DNA from: an uncultured Eubacteriales bacterium | GTDB taxonomy: Bacteria; Bacillota; Clostridia; Saccharofermentanales; UBA5734 | Length of the DNA stretch: 32,426 nucleotides | Assembly: GCA_903835065.1 (NCBI GenBank) | Contig: CAILLO010000024.1 | Span: 1-32,426, forward strand | Reading direction: 5' to 3' | Part shown: positions 464 to 32,233 of the stretch, piece after piece | Position numbering within the stretch: the first letter of the stretch is position 1 | Layout: each line of letters begins with the position of its first letter | Position numbers and translations under genes: made by a program | Notes under the pieces: model-generated | Seen by the model: only the letters and a program-made list of their open reading frames with translations | The model's database searches: none | What the model was told of the DNA's origin: nothing

Positions 464-492
464 TTGACAAGCCTTTCTGGCCGTGATATGTT
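464..492 (+). promoter_or_regulatory. Strong sigma-A type promoter ahead of the class I c-di-GMP riboswitch
   Basis: A perfect TTGACA (464-469), a 17-nt spacer and TATGTT (487-492) give a near-consensus vegetative promoter. The start of transcription would fall near 499, a few bases before the riboswitch aptamer. Confidence 0.85.
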
Positions 493-499
493 GCTCACG

Positions 500-592
500 T
501 AGAGTCCTATCACGAAACGGCAAACCCGGCGAAAGCCGGCGGCGCAAAGCTACAGGGCCTTCCGACCTCGGTCGATGGCAGCCAGCTCCCGA
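500..592 (+). promoter_or_regulatory. Cyclic-di-GMP-I (GEMM-I) riboswitch
   Basis: The RNA carries the class I cyclic-di-GMP landmarks in order. First comes CACGAAACGGCAAACC, close to the Vibrio cholerae Vc2 aptamer. Next is a GC stem closed by a GAAA tetraloop (CCGGC-GAAA-GCCGG, 526-539), then the conserved CGCAAAGC (543-550). Last is CTACAGGGCCTTC, leading to the second helix and the GATGGCAGCC block (574-583). It begins just after a strong promoter, as a leader should. The outer P1 helix is weak (about GAGT with GCTC). The expression platform is unclear: a short CCC/GGGG pairing followed by five T (604-608) is the only terminator-like feature nearby. The natural target on this strand is the adhesin at 1285, although another promoter and a class II riboswitch intervene. 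Confidence 0.85.
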
Positions 593-610
593 AAGAGAAG
601 GGGTTTTTCT

Positions 611-796
611 ATGTTCAGGAACCTCCCCTCCTCCTTCTTCAATGGGATCCCCACGGTGGACCGCTTCGGTCCTTCCGTTTTCGTCGTCGTTTCGTGCAAC
701 CCTCTTCGCGCCTTCCAGGCGTCGGCCCCGATTTCCGTCAACCCCGGACCCGTAGCGGTGGATGGAATTTTCATGCGTTCGCGCATGGGAAGATAG
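611..796 (+). CDS. Small ORF directly after the c-di-GMP-I riboswitch (doubtful)
   Basis: A 61-codon frame starts at the ATG at 611, preceded by GAGAAGGGG at a plausible distance. It ends with TAG at 794-796. The predicted peptide has a short hydrophobic stretch (FVVVS) and matches nothing I recognise. Third-position G+C is high but below that of clear genes here. It may be a leader peptide or a chance ORF. It is listed because it is the only frame with a start site immediately downstream of the first riboswitch. Confidence 0.22.
   Translation: MFRNLPSSFFNGIPTVDRFGPSVFVVVSCNPLRAFQASAPISVNPGPVAVDGIFMRSRMGR
658..683 (+). terminator. Possible intrinsic terminator after the c-di-GMP-I leader
   Basis: A perfect 6-bp hairpin, GGACCG-CTT-CGGTCC (658-672), is followed by a T-rich but interrupted tract (TTCCGTTTTC). 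It could stop transcripts that start at the first promoter. It lies inside the doubtful small ORF. Confidence 0.33.
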
Positions 797-1104
797 TACC
801 TTTTTGTCGGCACGTCCGCTGGAAACGGCGGCAGGTAGAGTCGGACGAGCAGAAACGGCAGGACGGCAGGCGCGATCGGATCGCATTCGCTGACGCATGG
901 ATCATGGGTCCCGGAACGGAAGAACGGCTCCGCGGCATTCTGCAGGCGGCTTTCGCGACGACGAACGAGGAAGTGGATCGTCAGGATCAGGAAGAATGGT
1001 CCCACCGGCGAGCGGCACGCGTCGGTGAACGAACCGCTTCCTCCTTTGTGGGGTCCAATGACCCCTGATGACCCAAAATGAAGGCTTTCCGTATCATATG
1101 GCAT
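797..1104. other. Unexplained non-coding-like region between the two riboswitches
   Basis: No convincing gene is seen on either strand. The frames that span it have unremarkable composition and no recognisable domain. It follows a UUCG-capped hairpin (CATGCG-TTCG-CGCATG, 772-787) and contains a short T5 tract near 801-805, purine-rich sequence, and a perfect hairpin GGGGTC-CAAT-GACCCC (1050-1065). The latter ends 40 nt before the next promoter, where an operator could sit. I cannot assign a function. Confidence 0.4.
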
Positions 1105-1133
1105 TTGACAAGGCATTGAAGCGGTTGTAGATT
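1105..1133 (+). promoter_or_regulatory. Sigma-A type promoter of the adhesin transcript
   Basis: TTGACA (1105-1110), a 17-nt spacer and TAGATT (1128-1133). The start would be near 1140, placing the perfect hairpin GCAATGTT-ACAAA-AACATTGC (1143-1163) at the 5' end of the RNA, just ahead of the class II riboswitch. Such a 5' hairpin may stabilise the transcript. Confidence 0.82.
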
Positions 1134-1182
1134 GATGTTGCGGCAATGTTACAAAAACATTGCAGAACACAACACAGCCAAG

Positions 1183-1282
1183 GATTGGGGATGCAAGGAT
1201 CCGCGCACTTTAATTGGGCACCTGGTGCGCGGGGAGCTAGTGGTGCAACCGGCCCCGATTCCTACCGAAGAGGAGGAATCGG
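1183..1282 (+). promoter_or_regulatory. Cyclic-di-GMP-II riboswitch with SD-controlling platform
   Basis: The core matches the class II cyclic-di-GMP aptamer described from Clostridium: a P2 loop reading TTTAATTGGGCACCTG (1209-1224) and a 3' part GAGCTAGTGGTGCAACCGG (1234-1252). P2 pairs CCGCGCAC (1201-1208) with GTGCGCGG (1225-1232). The pseudoknot pairs GCACC (1218-1222) with GGTGC (1242-1246). P1 pairs GATTGGGG (1183-1190) with CCCCGATT (1253-1260). The 3' strand of P1 is shared: CCGATTCC (1255-1262) is also a perfect 8-bp match to GGAATCGG (1275-1282), which overlaps the AGGAGG ribosome-binding site (1271-1276). Ligand-stabilised P1 should therefore free the site, giving an ON switch for the adhesin at 1285. 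The ON polarity is inferred from this base-pairing; it agrees with class II switches studied in C. difficile. Confidence 0.92.
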
Positions 1283-1284
1283 AG

Positions 1285-2727
1285 ATGAATAGTCAAGTTT
1301 TCAAGAGGTCTCGGCTTCGCGGCTCCAAGATGGCCGTGACGATGGCAGTGGTGGCGATTGTTACATTGCTGGTATTCTCCATGGTTTCCGGCGCCATCGA
1401 TTATTCGCAAACCTACAAGTATACCGGCAGCGGAACGGCCGGATACGGGCAAGCCTATCGATTCTCCATGACGGAAGGTTGGTACGCTTTCTGCGGAGAC
1501 TATTCCGTATATATCAACACATCGTCGAATTATGTAAAGGTTCCGCTCGACGAACCGAATCTCGCCAGCATCTGCAACATCACGAATCCCGACAAGATCC
1601 GTGCAATTCTGAACTACAGTTGGAATCACACAAGCAAGGAAGACATCACGGCCGTCCAGTACGCTCTGTGGCACTTCATCACGTTTTCGGGCAGCACACC
1701 CCCGACGCTGACGTCATCTTCCGTGGGTTCGTCACATTATGACGCGGTCAAGGCCATCTATGACATGTTGCTCGATGACGCGCAGACTCCTCCCATTACG
1801 GCCGCTGAAGCCTCGACCGTGAACACGTTCACTCTTGTGGGCCCTCTCTCCGGGTCCTGGGCGCTGACGGGCGGCGTCACGCAGTACACCTTCGATTTCA
1901 GTGCGACGAGCTCGACCGGCGCCGCGATCGTCTTCGATGTTCTGGGCAGCGGCGGGACATCGCTCGACGCCTCCAAGTACGAAATCGTCGATATGGGATC
2001 CGGCGATTACCAGCTCATCCTGAAGGGCGTGACTTCGCCGACCTCCTTCACACTGAAGGCCACAACGCTGAAGAACAAGTCCACTGATGCCGAAGTGTTC
2101 GTCACCTACGACAATAAGCGCGGAACATACAGCCTGAACCGCGAGCATTCCCAAACGGTGATTGGCATTCTGCTCAGCCAAACGACCCAATCCGAAATTT
2201 TCGGCCTCTCCTGCACGGATCCGACCCCGACCCCGACCCCCAGCAACACACCTACGCCGACCCCAAGCAACACTCCGACCCCGACCCCCAGCAACACTCC
2301 TACGCCGACCCCCAGCAACACTCCTACGCCGACCCCCAGCAACACTCCGACCCCGACCCCCAGCAACACTCCTACGCCGACCCCCAGCAATACTCCTACG
2401 CCGACCCCCAGCAATACTCCTACGCCGACCCCCAGCAACACACCTACGCCGACCCCGAGTGACACTCCTACGCCGACCCCCAGCGTCACACCGACCCCTA
2501 CCCCGAGTGACACTCCTACGCCGACCCCCAGCAACACGCCGACTCCCACCCCTGAGATCTCGATACCTCAGGACACCCCGCCTCTGACCACCATCACGTC
2601 CGAAGCGACCGTCACCGAACCCCCGCTGCCCAAGACCGGCGGCGTGGATACCAACCTTCTCTACCTGCTCGGCTCCGCACTCGTTGCGGGCGGCCTGATG
2701 CTCAAGAGACGTCGGAACGACCGCTAA
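1285..2727 (+). CDS. LPxTG-anchored thioester-domain (TQXA-like) adhesin
   Basis: A 480-residue surface protein. A basic N-terminus and hydrophobic segment (about 17-36) form a signal peptide. The next part resembles a thioester (TED/TQXA) domain, with Cys70 in YAFCGDY and Gln125 in AVQYALW as the expected Cys-Gln thioester pair, which in this family can bond covalently to host or substrate amines. A second beta-rich region (about 170-300) is followed by a TPTPTPSN stalk, then LPKTG (448-452), a hydrophobic stretch and KRRRNDR, the classic sortase signal. The ATG at 1285 is chosen because AGGAGG lies 8 nt upstream and the riboswitch ends there; the longer frame from 1132 would translate the aptamer. 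A sortase gene follows. The role in attachment is inferred from domain architecture and cyclic-di-GMP control. Confidence 0.9.
2221..2552 (+). repeat. 24-nt tandem repeat encoding the Thr/Pro stalk
   Basis: About 14 imperfect copies of a 24-nt unit encode TPTPTPSN, with Asn replaced by Asp or Val in three late copies. The units differ mainly at synonymous bases (for example CCTACGCCGACC against CCGACCCCGACC). Such arrays change copy number by slippage, so stalk length may vary between strains. Long open frames on the opposite strand here are artefacts of the repeat. Confidence 0.93.
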
Positions 2728-2744: not shown

Positions 2745-2780
2745 AAGGCCCCCCGATGTCCTCGGGGGGCCTTCTCTTTG
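2745..2780 (+). terminator. Intrinsic terminator between adhesin and sortase
   Basis: A 12-bp perfect stem, AAGGCCCCCCGA (2745-2756) with TCGGGGGGCCTT (2762-2773), has a 5-nt loop and is followed by CTCTTTG. It should end most adhesin transcripts and leave lower read-through expression of the sortase. Confidence 0.85.
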
Positions 2781-2800
2781 CCCGAAAGGATTCGACCGAC

Positions 2801-3517
2801 ATGAAGAGCAACGTGAAAGCCGCAAGAAAGCACAGTGAGCACAAGTGGACCTCGAACGTCGCCATCCTGTGCGGCGCCGCGATCCTCCTGACGACGGGCG
2901 GCACTGAAATCTACAATTACCTGCAGCGGCGCGCGGCCGAAGCCAACTTCGGCGCGCAAATGCAGCAGTTGGAGGCCGCGGCCCTGACCGCGGCGGCGCA
3001 GGCGAGTCCGACGACCGCACCGCCCACGCCCGGCGTGGGCACTCCCATGCCGACGGTCGCCGTGCCGATCGTCACGGGCAACGCGAATCCGACTCTGGCG
3101 CCCATCGCGTCGTTCCAGGTCCTCGGCATCCTCACGATCAAGAGCATGGGCCTCACGGTCCCCGTCGTCGAAGGCACCGGCACGGACCAACTGCACGTCA
3201 CGGTCGGCCACATCGCCGGCACGCCGATGCCCGGGCAGCTCGGGAACTCCGCGCTGGCGGGCCACCGCAGCGGCGTCTCCGCCAAGCCTTTCGTGCATCT
3301 CGACTACGTCCACGTCGGCGACAGCATCGACTTCTTCGACGGCGGCACGACCTACCGCTACATCGTCTTCAAGACCTTCGTGGTCAAGCCCGACGAGAAC
3401 TGGGTCCTCCGGCCGCTGGCGGACTCCCCGTACACGATGACCCTGATCAGCTGCTACTATCCTCTGTTCGGAGCGACCGAGCGCCTGATCGTCCAGGGAC
3501 GCCTCCAAGGCACCTGA
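2801..3517 (+). CDS. Sortase, class D-like
   Basis: A 238-residue membrane-anchored transpeptidase expected to cleave LPxTG-type signals and attach proteins such as the upstream adhesin to the cell wall. One transmembrane segment (about 19-34) is followed by an Ala/Pro/Thr-rich linker (about 60-100) and a sortase barrel. The catalytic triad is visible: His155 in ALAGHRSG, Cys218 in TLISCYYP and Arg228 in ATERLIVQG. The TLxxC and the single N-terminal anchor fit class D better than class C, which would have a C-terminal segment, but class is not certain. The ATG at 2801 is used because it follows the terminator hairpin and has AAAGGA 10 nt upstream; a longer frame would run back through the hairpin. 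Confidence 0.9.
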   Translation: MKSNVKAARKHSEHKWTSNVAILCGAAILLTTGGTEIYNYLQRRAAEANFGAQMQQLEAAALTAAAQASPTTAPPTPGVGTPMPTVAVPIVTGNANPTLAPIASFQVLGILTIKSMGLTVPVVEGTGTDQLHVTVGHIAGTPMPGQLGNSALAGHRSGVSAKPFVHLDYVHVGDSIDFFDGGTTYRYIVFKTFVVKPDENWVLRPLADSPYTMTLISCYYPLFGATERLIVQGRLQGT

Positions 3518-18609: not shown

Positions 18610-20012
18610 GCTCCGCACCCCGAGACCCCCGAGCCCCCTGCGCGCGACGCGCCCTCCCCGGCTGGCTGCAGGCCCTGCGCGGCCGCCTCGAGCCGGTTCG
18701 CGAGACGCTGGCCGACAAGGACGAATTCGCCGTCAACCGCCGCTTCATCGCGGGGGACAACTACGGCTACAACATCGCCGTCAACCTTGCCGGCGGCGGC
18801 TTCTTCACCGGCTACCTGCTGCGCCTCGGCGCCGACGACTCCTTCCTCGGGCTCGTGACGATGGCCACGCTGCTCGGAAACTCCCTGCAGTTCCTCTCGC
18901 CGCTGCTGCTCAACCGCTTCCCGCGCCGCAAGCCGATCCTGCTCGCCGCCCGCGCGGTCTTCCTGCTCATCACCGTCGTCCTGATCGGCGCCGCCCAGTA
19001 CGCGCCCGTCCCGCACGCCGCCCAGCTCTCGTTCATCCTCGCGGCCTCCTTCGTCGCCAACGCCGTCGCCGCGCTGATCCAGCCCGGCGTCCTGGTCTGG
19101 CACATCCGGAGCATCCCGGAGACGATGCGCGTCCGGTACTACTCGTTCATCAACCTATCGGTCAACGTGCTGATGTACGTGGCGATCCTGATCGGCAGCG
19201 CGGCCGTCGACGCCTTCAAGGCGGCCGGGAGCGAGCTGCTCGGACTCACCGTGCTGCGCGTCGCCGCCGTCGTCTTCGGTGTCCTCGACCTGCTCGCGAT
19301 GGCCCGCATCAAGGAGTACCCGGAGCCCTCCGCGCCGTCCGGCTTCAAGGCGTTGCTCGCGCCGTTCCGCTCGCCGCGCTACCTCGGCACGGTCGCCGTG
19401 ACCTGCGTCTGGAGTTTCGGTGCGAACCTCACGGGCCCGTATTTCACGGCCTACCTGCTCGGCGACGTCGGCATCGCCTACACGGTCTTCAACCTCGTCG
19501 CGGCGGGCGGCGTCGTCGTGATGCTGCTCGTCACGCCGGCGTGGACGCGGCGCATCGAGCGGATGGACCTGCTCGCGGCCTTCCGCCTGTGCCTCGCGCT
19601 CTACTCCGTGCACTACTTCGCGATCTCCCTCACGACGAAGGCGACGCTGTGGCTGTACCCGCTGATCTCCGTCTACGCCTACGTCATGGTCACGGGGATG
19701 GCCATCGTCATGGCCAACATGCCGTTCCGGCACATGCCGGAGGAGGACCGCACGACCTCGATCGCATTCTACGCGGGCGTCAACGCGTTCGCGGCGCTGC
19801 TCGGCGTGCTCGCCGGGCGCGAGTTCGTGCGGCGCACGGAGAACGTGGCGTATCTGGTGGCGGGGGTCCACGTGGGGAACCGGCAGATGGTCCTCTGGGT
19901 CGCCGGCGGGTCCATGCTGTTCGCGTCGCTCCTGCTCGCGCTGTGCGCCTCCCGGCGCCGGAAGCCGCCGACCGCCGCGACGGTCGGGGATATCGCTTCA
20001 ACCAATCCATAG
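18606..20012 (+). CDS. MFS-like multi-pass membrane protein, paralogue A
   Basis: A 468-residue membrane protein with about 12 hydrophobic segments and MFS-like layout. After an Arg-rich N-terminal tail (about 45 residues) comes NRRFIAGDNYGYNIAVNLAGG, then LLNRFPRRKPILLAARAVF at the 2-3 loop, the usual place of MFS motif A. It is clearly related to the next gene, sharing FIAGDNY, GYLL, LLNRF, HxRSIPE, MARIKEYPEP, GPYFTAYLL and NMPFRxMPE. The substrate is unknown. It overlaps the SDR gene by 4 nt. The tail before the first helix is much longer than in paralogue B and contains many Pro and Arg. Confidence 0.85.
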   Translation: MSSAPRDPRAPCARRALPGWLQALRGRLEPVRETLADKDEFAVNRRFIAGDNYGYNIAVNLAGGGFFTGYLLRLGADDSFLGLVTMATLLGNSLQFLSPLLLNRFPRRKPILLAARAVFLLITVVLIGAAQYAPVPHAAQLSFILAASFVANAVAALIQPGVLVWHIRSIPETMRVRYYSFINLSVNVLMYVAILIGSAAVDAFKAAGSELLGLTVLRVAAVVFGVLDLLAMARIKEYPEPSAPSGFKALLAPFRSPRYLGTVAVTCVWSFGANLTGPYFTAYLLGDVGIAYTVFNLVAAGGVVVMLLVTPAWTRRIERMDLLAAFRLCLALYSVHYFAISLTTKATLWLYPLISVYAYVMVTGMAIVMANMPFRHMPEEDRTTSIAFYAGVNAFAALLGVLAGREFVRRTENVAYLVAGVHVGNRQMVLWVAGGSMLFASLLLALCASRRRKPPTAATVGDIASTNP

Positions 20013-31618: not shown

Positions 31619-32233
31619 ATGCCGGCAAAGAAGATCCTGGAAGCCAAGCAGACCGTCGTCGACGGTCTCGTCTCCGAGATGAAGAGCGCCAAGTCCCTGG
31701 TGATCGCCGACTACCGCGGCCTCACCGTGGAACAGGACACCAAGCTCCGCAACGACCTGCGCAAGGCGGGCGTCACGTACAAGGTGGTCAAGAACACGCT
31801 CGCCACGATCGCCGCGAAGAACGCGGGGATCAAGGGCCTCGAGACGCTGCTCGTCGGGCCGACCGCAATCGCCTACAGCACCACGGACGAAGTCGCCCCC
31901 GCGAAGGTCCTGAAGGAATTCGCGGACAAGGTCGACAAGTACAAGATCCGCGGCGGAGTCCTGGAAGGCAGAACGGTCGATCTCGACACGGTCAAGATGC
32001 TCGCTGCCATTCCGCCCAGACAAGTGCTCTACGCCCAGGTCGTCGTCACCCTCAACTCGCCCATCACCAAGCTCGCCATGCTGCTCGCCGCCATCGCCGA
32101 GAAGAACGGCGCCCCGAAGACGGAGACCGCAGACACGGCCGAAGCCGCACCGGAAGCCGCACCCGCCGTCGAAGCCGCACCCGTGGCCGAGACCGCGCCT
32201 GCCGCCGAAGCCGCTCCCGCGGCCGAAGCCTGA
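31619..32233 (+). CDS. rplJ: Ribosomal protein uL10 with Ala/Glu/Pro-rich tail
   Basis: A 204-residue protein forming the base of the L7/L12 stalk. SLVIADYRGLTVEQDTKLRNDLRKAG and YKVVKNTLA mark the rRNA-binding domain, followed by the L12-binding helix (NSPITKLAMLLAAIAEKNG, about 147-166). The last 38 residues consist mostly of Ala, Glu and Pro in imperfect EAAPA repeats. Such tails are seen in high-GC bacteria; this one is longer than usual. A strong AAGGAGG precedes the ATG. Confidence 0.96.
   Translation: MPAKKILEAKQTVVDGLVSEMKSAKSLVIADYRGLTVEQDTKLRNDLRKAGVTYKVVKNTLATIAAKNAGIKGLETLLVGPTAIAYSTTDEVAPAKVLKEFADKVDKYKIRGGVLEGRTVDLDTVKMLAAIPPRQVLYAQVVVTLNSPITKLAMLLAAIAEKNGAPKTETADTAEAAPEAAPAVEAAPVAETAPAAEAAPAAEA

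Follow-up and report, generated by a model that had tools for sequence, protein, structure and literature searches.

The window, by which we mean the whole stretch of DNA that was analyzed (32,426 nucleotides, or 32 kb, from an uncultured Eubacteriales bacterium), has as its first base the first base of its contig. An Rfam scan of the window gave two matches at the gathering score, both on the plus strand, namely, a class I and a class II cyclic di-GMP (c-di-GMP) riboswitch aptamer. The preliminary description of this DNA had placed a half-kilobase without a convincing gene between the two riboswitches, and this was borne out by our analysis: approximately 500 nt are flanked by the RF01051 and RF01786 aptamers. 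It had also called the class I riboswitch strongly promoted, which holds at the sequence level, as the promoter-like site P1 is a 10/12 match with a TG before the −10 element and ends 16 nt before the start of the aptamer. The features of the locus are as follows.

464 to 492, plus strand: promoter-like site P1 (TTGACA, 17 nt, TATGTT, with TG before the −10 element; 10/12), upstream of the class I aptamer
509 to 593, plus strand: c-di-GMP-I riboswitch aptamer (RF01051, 64.8 bits against a gathering cut-off of 35)
594 to 610, plus strand: purine-rich stretch followed by five T, adjoining the 3′ end of the class I aptamer
611 to 796, plus strand: 61-codon frame, probably no functional gene and possibly the stub of a lost gene
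961 to 1065, plus strand: strongly folded RNA element, predicted by folding against shuffles; no relative found
1105 to 1133, plus strand: promoter-like site P2 (TTGACA, 17 nt, TAGATT; 10/12)
1180 to 1263, plus strand: c-di-GMP-II riboswitch aptamer (RF01786, 80.8 bits against a gathering cut-off of 53.5)
1255 to 1282, plus strand: predicted hairpin in which the 3′ strand of the class II aptamer pairs with the adhesin gene's ribosome-binding site (z −3.60, 0/200 shuffles), the putative class II expression platform
1285 to 2727, plus strand: surface protein with an LPxTG anchor and a thioester domain (PF08341, 35.1 bits against a cut-off of 22; PF00746, 23.1 bits against a cut-off of 20)
2756 to 3517, plus strand: sortase (PF04203, 98.8 bits)

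A contig from the same genus (G001:C128) is syntenic with the locus as far as the end of the LPxTG gene and stops in the repeat region, short of the leader. The DAHP synthase encoded in the window has its nearest counterparts among named genomes in Clostridia, at identities of up to 66%. The N-terminal part of the adhesin occurs in three of the 23 genomes of the family, the window's own counted, and the available flanks of the two other loci hold no riboswitch at the gathering score.

To determine the coding potential of positions 611 to 1104, we scored the candidate frames with a codon table trained on 17 Pfam-supported genes of the window (earlier rounds had used unverified training genes). 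The 61-codon frame is present at 611 to 796 as described, and the doubt already attached to it was justified: it has no relatives, no Pfam match over the cut-off, and an ambiguous codon score. Its score of 0.063, the best among the candidate frames, was reached by 9.1% of 385 wrong-frame pieces, and 11.7% of 77 true pieces scored at or below it; the codon usage is therefore ambiguous, overlapping with that of both true and wrong-frame pieces. A 124-codon frame (694 to 1068) scored like a wrong frame (−0.272), and a minus-strand frame (550 to 1170) fell in the wrong-frame range (−0.206); like the 61-codon frame, neither had a Pfam match over the cut-off. A protein search with the two plus-strand frames against 39 genomes returned only chance-level matches, the weak ones (e.g., G016 with E 0.001 and G034 with E 0.002, each per genome) being what chance predicts over 39 genomes. 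At the DNA level, a search with positions 400 to 1300 found matches in 15 of 98 genomes, the window's own included, and outside the aptamers the 97 other genomes gave only two short matches (G043, window positions 635 to 667; G042, 966 to 1003), both within unrelated genes. The preliminary description had named clear conservation of a minus-strand coding sequence as an observation that would speak against it; none was found, the minus-strand frame having no Pfam match, a wrong-frame codon score, and no DNA relative in the 97 other genomes apart from the aptamers and the two short matches. Owing to the missing relatives (for the minus-strand frame, in Pfam and at the DNA level) and the weak or ambiguous codon usage, a coding reading was rejected for all three frames, 611 to 796, 694 to 1068, and 550 to 1170 on the minus strand.

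We then examined the structure of the same half-kilobase. Three hairpins had been reported in it (658 to 672, 772 to 787, and 1050 to 1065); their positions are exact, but as a set they do not exceed chance. The three perfect 6-bp hairpins compare with a mean of 1.14 in dinucleotide shuffles, 11.6% of 500 shuffles reached three, and at least three such hairpins occur in 29% of 59 window tiles of equal length. A scan for terminator-like sites found one (658 to 672) against 1.2 in shuffles. The hairpin at 1050 to 1065 proved to be the end of a far larger fold, 961 to 1065, which had been overlooked. This element has a predicted folding energy of −55.8 kcal/mol and consists of a long imperfect stem enclosing two hairpins (984 to 1002 and 1003 to 1028), followed by the hairpin at 1050 to 1065. 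Its fold has the lowest z (−5.30) among 1078 windows of 120 nt covering both strands of the 32 kb, with a runner-up at −4.69, and the 106-nt element alone has a z of −5.62 (0/200 shuffles), with none of 10,000 shuffles equally stable. When 260 kb of the same genome was assessed by composition regression, seven of 8632 windows were equally or more extreme, and the element is thus rare but not unique. It keeps its structure, with 40 pairs, when the entire RNA from 499 to 1104 is folded, and that RNA is itself ordinary in stability (z −0.79). A good fold is likewise predicted for the opposite strand (z −3.05), as expected of any inverted repeat, and the plus strand is the better folder owing to G-U pairs. 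A single-sequence model of the element (R1), applied with strict filters, found no relatives in 197 other genomes. These folding results make 961 to 1065 a candidate new structured RNA.

Several other structures were considered and rejected. Hammerhead ribozymes need stem II and a GAAA strand; the match to a type III hammerhead at 1043 to 1084 reached 14 bits against 48.5 (E 2.3), lacks stem II, and has AAAA in place of GAAA. Long-range pairing of 926 to 956 with the aptamer was equaled or surpassed in 64% of 1000 shuffles, and that of 956 to 973 with 672 to 689 in 99.8% of 1000 shuffles. Elsewhere, the runner-up fold of the window (31861 to 31980, minus strand, z −4.69) lies antisense to the gene for ribosomal protein L10, and the most extreme fold of the 260 kb, by composition regression and on both strands, lies at 19741 to 19860 of another locus of the same genome (L201).

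The two riboswitches differ in what follows them. Folding predicts that the 3′ strand of the class II aptamer pairs with the adhesin gene's ribosome-binding site, and the same hairpin was obtained in all four loci where a class II aptamer comes after a class I aptamer (see below), with z values of −3.60 in the window and −5.21, −4.39, and −5.78 in the others (0/200 shuffles each). This suggests that class II acts on translation. After the class I aptamer, the purine stretch and T-run at 594 to 610 formed only a weak terminator hairpin (z +0.65), and the hairpin following class I was no better than shuffles in four of the four tandem loci (z +0.10 to +0.74), with the T-run present. Similar stretches come after class I in the three other tandems, where no ATG accompanies them, as well as in family members whose gene starts directly after the class I aptamer; among the 29 other loci with class I that were examined in the window's family, seven have an ATG at +13 to +17 after the aptamer. 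Translational control of the start at 611 by class I was rejected, as the folding model gave the same access to the ribosome-binding site (0.15 and 0.15) with and without the aptamer enforced.

The preliminary description left P2, the second promoter-like site, out of account. The end of its −10 element lies 46 nt from the class II aptamer, and the corresponding distance is 45 to 48 nt in three of five other class II loci (G000, G001, and G003). Since P2 stands at the distance seen in these three loci, the class II riboswitch may be an independent unit, and the locus may be either a two-promoter version of a tandem or two separate units.

Next, we searched other genomes for class I and class II aptamers in close succession. 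Another Clostridia family has such an arrangement in three genomes, G495, G571, and G568: class I comes first and is followed on the same strand, beyond a spacer, by one or two class II aptamers and then by genes for an LPxTG surface protein and a sortase. The anchored protein has 545 residues with a C-terminal LPKTG anchor in G495, 1293 residues with LPKTG in G571, and 1269 residues with LPKTG in G568, each accompanied by a sortase. An LPxTG and sortase operon therefore follows four of the four class I–class II tandems seen, a count limited to mixed tandems. The spacer is 586 nt in the window versus 141, 229, and 189 nt in the other three. To judge from their family membership, both aptamers of the tandem probably bind c-di-GMP; for the class I aptamers of G571 (L216) and G495 (L214), the best-scoring family was the variant c-di-GMP-I-GGC (RF03167). 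On the coding strand, promoter-like sites were found upstream of class I in 3/3 of these genomes and within the spacer in 0/3, so these three are probably single leaders. Their spacers fold weakly (z 0.45, −2.83, and −1.08) and gave no convincing alignment. A hairpin common to them was also rejected: G571 has a 10-bp inverted repeat (0/100 shuffles), and the spacers are unlike one another.

The arrangement is uncommon. Among the 23 genomes of the window's family, class II occurs in 13 (35 places) and class I in 14 (31 places); a class I aptamer lies within 6 kb on the same strand at one of the 35 class II places, that of the window, and five other class I/class II pairs are on opposite strands. 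A class-wide sample contained class II in 49 of 391 genomes. The class I search covered 47 of these 49 (39 positive), the other two being covered by the family search, and class I followed closely by class II on the same strand was seen in two of the 49 (G495 and the window; tables read by eye). In the family of G495, class II is present in 14 of 20 genomes at 28 places, counted as 25 leaders; four loci (L218, L230, L232, and L239) had no separate scan, their places being covered by L214, L220, and L216. In the retrieved flanks, at most 1.5 kb long, class I lies on the same strand in four of the 25 leaders, in the order I–II in three (G495, G571, and G568) and II–I in one (G580). The reverse tandem (G580:C2, L246) has its aptamers 133 nt apart and precedes a secreted-looking protein of 322 residues, in which neither an LPxTG-type motif nor a Pfam match was found.

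The preliminary description had reasoned that a promoted class I riboswitch needs its own target within the half-kilobase. Because the whole arrangement, from class I to the sortase, recurs in three genomes of another family, class I need not have a target there, and the premise is probably wrong. At the locus itself, two complete riboswitches, probably for one ligand, lie on one strand ahead of one operon with no convincing gene between them, which is the arrangement expected of a same-ligand tandem. Given its recurrence in two families, we favor, with modest confidence, the reading that 611 to 1104 is the noncoding spacer of a leader with two unrelated c-di-GMP riboswitches ahead of one adhesin–sortase operon. 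Among the four options originally offered (a long cis-acting leader, a small RNA, a short peptide, or a decayed gene), the long leader is thus the best supported, although through the recurrence in three genomes and not through the evidence first given for it. Points that speak against this reading are the presence of P2 in the spacer, the greater spacer length than in the other three tandems, the weak hairpin after class I, the rarity of the order in the window's family and in the class-wide sample, and the dissimilar, weakly folding spacers of the other tandems, which do not share the folded element.

With this tandem leader, transcription would start near 499, and class I might decide first whether it continues past the purine stretch and U-run at 594 to 608. 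The transcript would then traverse the spacer, folded element included, and reach class II, which would control translation through the predicted pairing of its 3′ strand with the ribosome-binding site; binding of the ligand would free this site, making class II an ON switch. High c-di-GMP would thus be checked twice ahead of the costly synthesis of the adhesin. The second promoter at 1105 probably feeds class II alone as well, and the folded element may protect or delimit the upstream RNA. More tentatively, we suggest a recurring Clostridia module, in which the unrelated class I and class II riboswitches are stacked before an LPxTG adhesin and sortase so that the signal is read first in transcription and then in translation; in this lineage, the spacer would have gained a promoter and a structured RNA, and the upstream half may be a c-di-GMP-gated RNA.

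An alternative that we regard as unlikely is that class I once controlled a gene for a secreted protein starting at 611, of which the 61-codon stub and drifting DNA are left. The ATG 17 nt past the aptamer, behind the purine stretch and T-run, reproduces the layout of the seven class I loci described above, the single Pfam-tested one of which encodes a CAP-domain protein, and another of which (L071 of G010) shows a frame of just 10 codons; the 61-codon frame also outscores the other candidates in codon usage. However, the frame shows no similarity to the proteins downstream of other class I or class II loci (scores at chance level among the matches listed) and has no relatives in 38 other genomes (best per-genome E 0.001 to 0.002) or in Pfam. 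The purine stretch and T-run without an ATG in the three other tandems, and the unchanged access to the ribosome-binding site in the folding model, also argue against a lost gene.

We consider it rather improbable that the upstream half is a c-di-GMP-gated small RNA, that is, a free RNA of approximately 570 nt running from 499 and ending in 961 to 1065, with a role as a sponge or regulator. The strong predicted promoter, the missing gene, and a tightly folded end shortly before P2 would suit such an RNA, as would the survival of the element in the fold of the whole RNA and the better folding of its plus strand; the merRNA of Bdellovibrio, according to the accessible part of PMC3627812, offers a precedent. 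Yet no U-tract follows the fold, and there is thus no classical terminator at 1065; in addition, the whole RNA is not specially stable, and the single-sequence model found the element in none of the 197 other genomes. Translation of the 61-codon frame into a short peptide under class I control is very improbable: a ribosome-binding-like stretch and an ATG stand at the expected spacing and the codon score is compatible with coding if ambiguous, but the frame is without relatives or a Pfam match over the cut-off and, by inspection, without the hydrophobic stretch of a signal peptide, unlike the genes that start at this position in relatives.

The preferred reading, a spacer within a mixed tandem leader, can be compared with known systems. 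The accessible part of a 2022 survey (PMC9481103) describes doublets and triplets of c-di-GMP-I and doublets and triplets of c-di-GMP-II, each tandem being of one class, with the c-di-GMP-II doublets mostly ahead of a gene for a surface-anchor protein. As in those tandems, several complete riboswitches for one signal stand in series before one gene in the window; unlike the c-di-GMP tandems presented there, the window mixes two unrelated classes and has a long spacer with a promoter-like site inside. Section 29 of the survey tabulates tandems with one ligand and two mechanisms for SAM riboswitches only; SAM-II/SAM-V joins transcriptional control by the first riboswitch to translational control by the second (PMC9481103). 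The window, where aptamers of two unrelated classes with probably the same ligand follow each other, resembles SAM-II/SAM-V and SAM-II/SAM-I-IV (PMC9481103) in this respect. By contrast, the SAM tandems are OFF switches of sulfur genes, whereas the riboswitches of the window are predicted to respond to c-di-GMP, are probably ON switches, and precede an adhesin operon, with only a putative transcriptional role for class I. The accessible part of a 2025 survey (PMC12452182) pools the c-di-GMP classes, and mixed pairs could therefore sit unnamed in its data. No mixed class I/class II pair was recognized in the literature searched, which lay outside supplementary files and most subscription journals. 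The pieces are thus known, and the mixed-class combination for c-di-GMP is new as far as we searched.

Individual parts of the locus have further counterparts, here as given in the accessible parts of the sources. The merRNA of Bdellovibrio bacteriovorus is a 445-nt c-di-GMP riboswitch RNA with no conserved downstream frame (PMC3627812), and the putative RNA of the window would likewise comprise a c-di-GMP riboswitch and several hundred nucleotides without a conserved frame, with respect to 611 to 1104 only. MerRNA is massively expressed and stands alone, whereas the putative RNA of the window precedes on the same strand an adhesin operon with a c-di-GMP riboswitch of its own. CD3246 of Clostridioides difficile, a thioester-domain protein, is listed under c-di-GMP-II (PMC11477304), and the window similarly has class II ahead of a thioester-domain surface protein; unlike the window, CD3246 appears there with no mention of an upstream class I aptamer. 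The same source lists one class I riboswitch of C. difficile as an orphan. The Bc1 class I riboswitch of Bacillus thuringiensis has a long expression platform with two typical terminators (PMC11218506); in Bc1 as in the window, the leader downstream of a class I c-di-GMP riboswitch is unusually long, but no convincing terminator follows class I in the window. If the mixed tandem is real, two unrelated RNA sensors for c-di-GMP, which signals the change to a sessile life, have been combined on one adhesin operon, either independently or by shuffling. It would then be a natural test of why a cell would benefit from two different sensors of one signal, be it through a sharper response or through two time scales or sensitivities, an idea that is established for SAM.

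Further observations concern class I aptamers elsewhere in the family. At five loci of one genus, g2 (L057, L059, L060, L064, and L070), a gene starts at most 17 nt after the class I aptamer, and the protein encoded at L057 has a CAP domain. From position 1584 of L071 (G010:C50), a class I aptamer is followed by the 10-codon frame and then by hairpins with T-runs; a class II aptamer lies 241 nt away on the opposite strand, and class I is again without an obvious target. Finally, the class I aptamers at L066 (G001:C180) and L055 (G003:C271) stand ahead of genes whose products have a central domain resembling RsgI, which may connect c-di-GMP with anti-sigma-like proteins.
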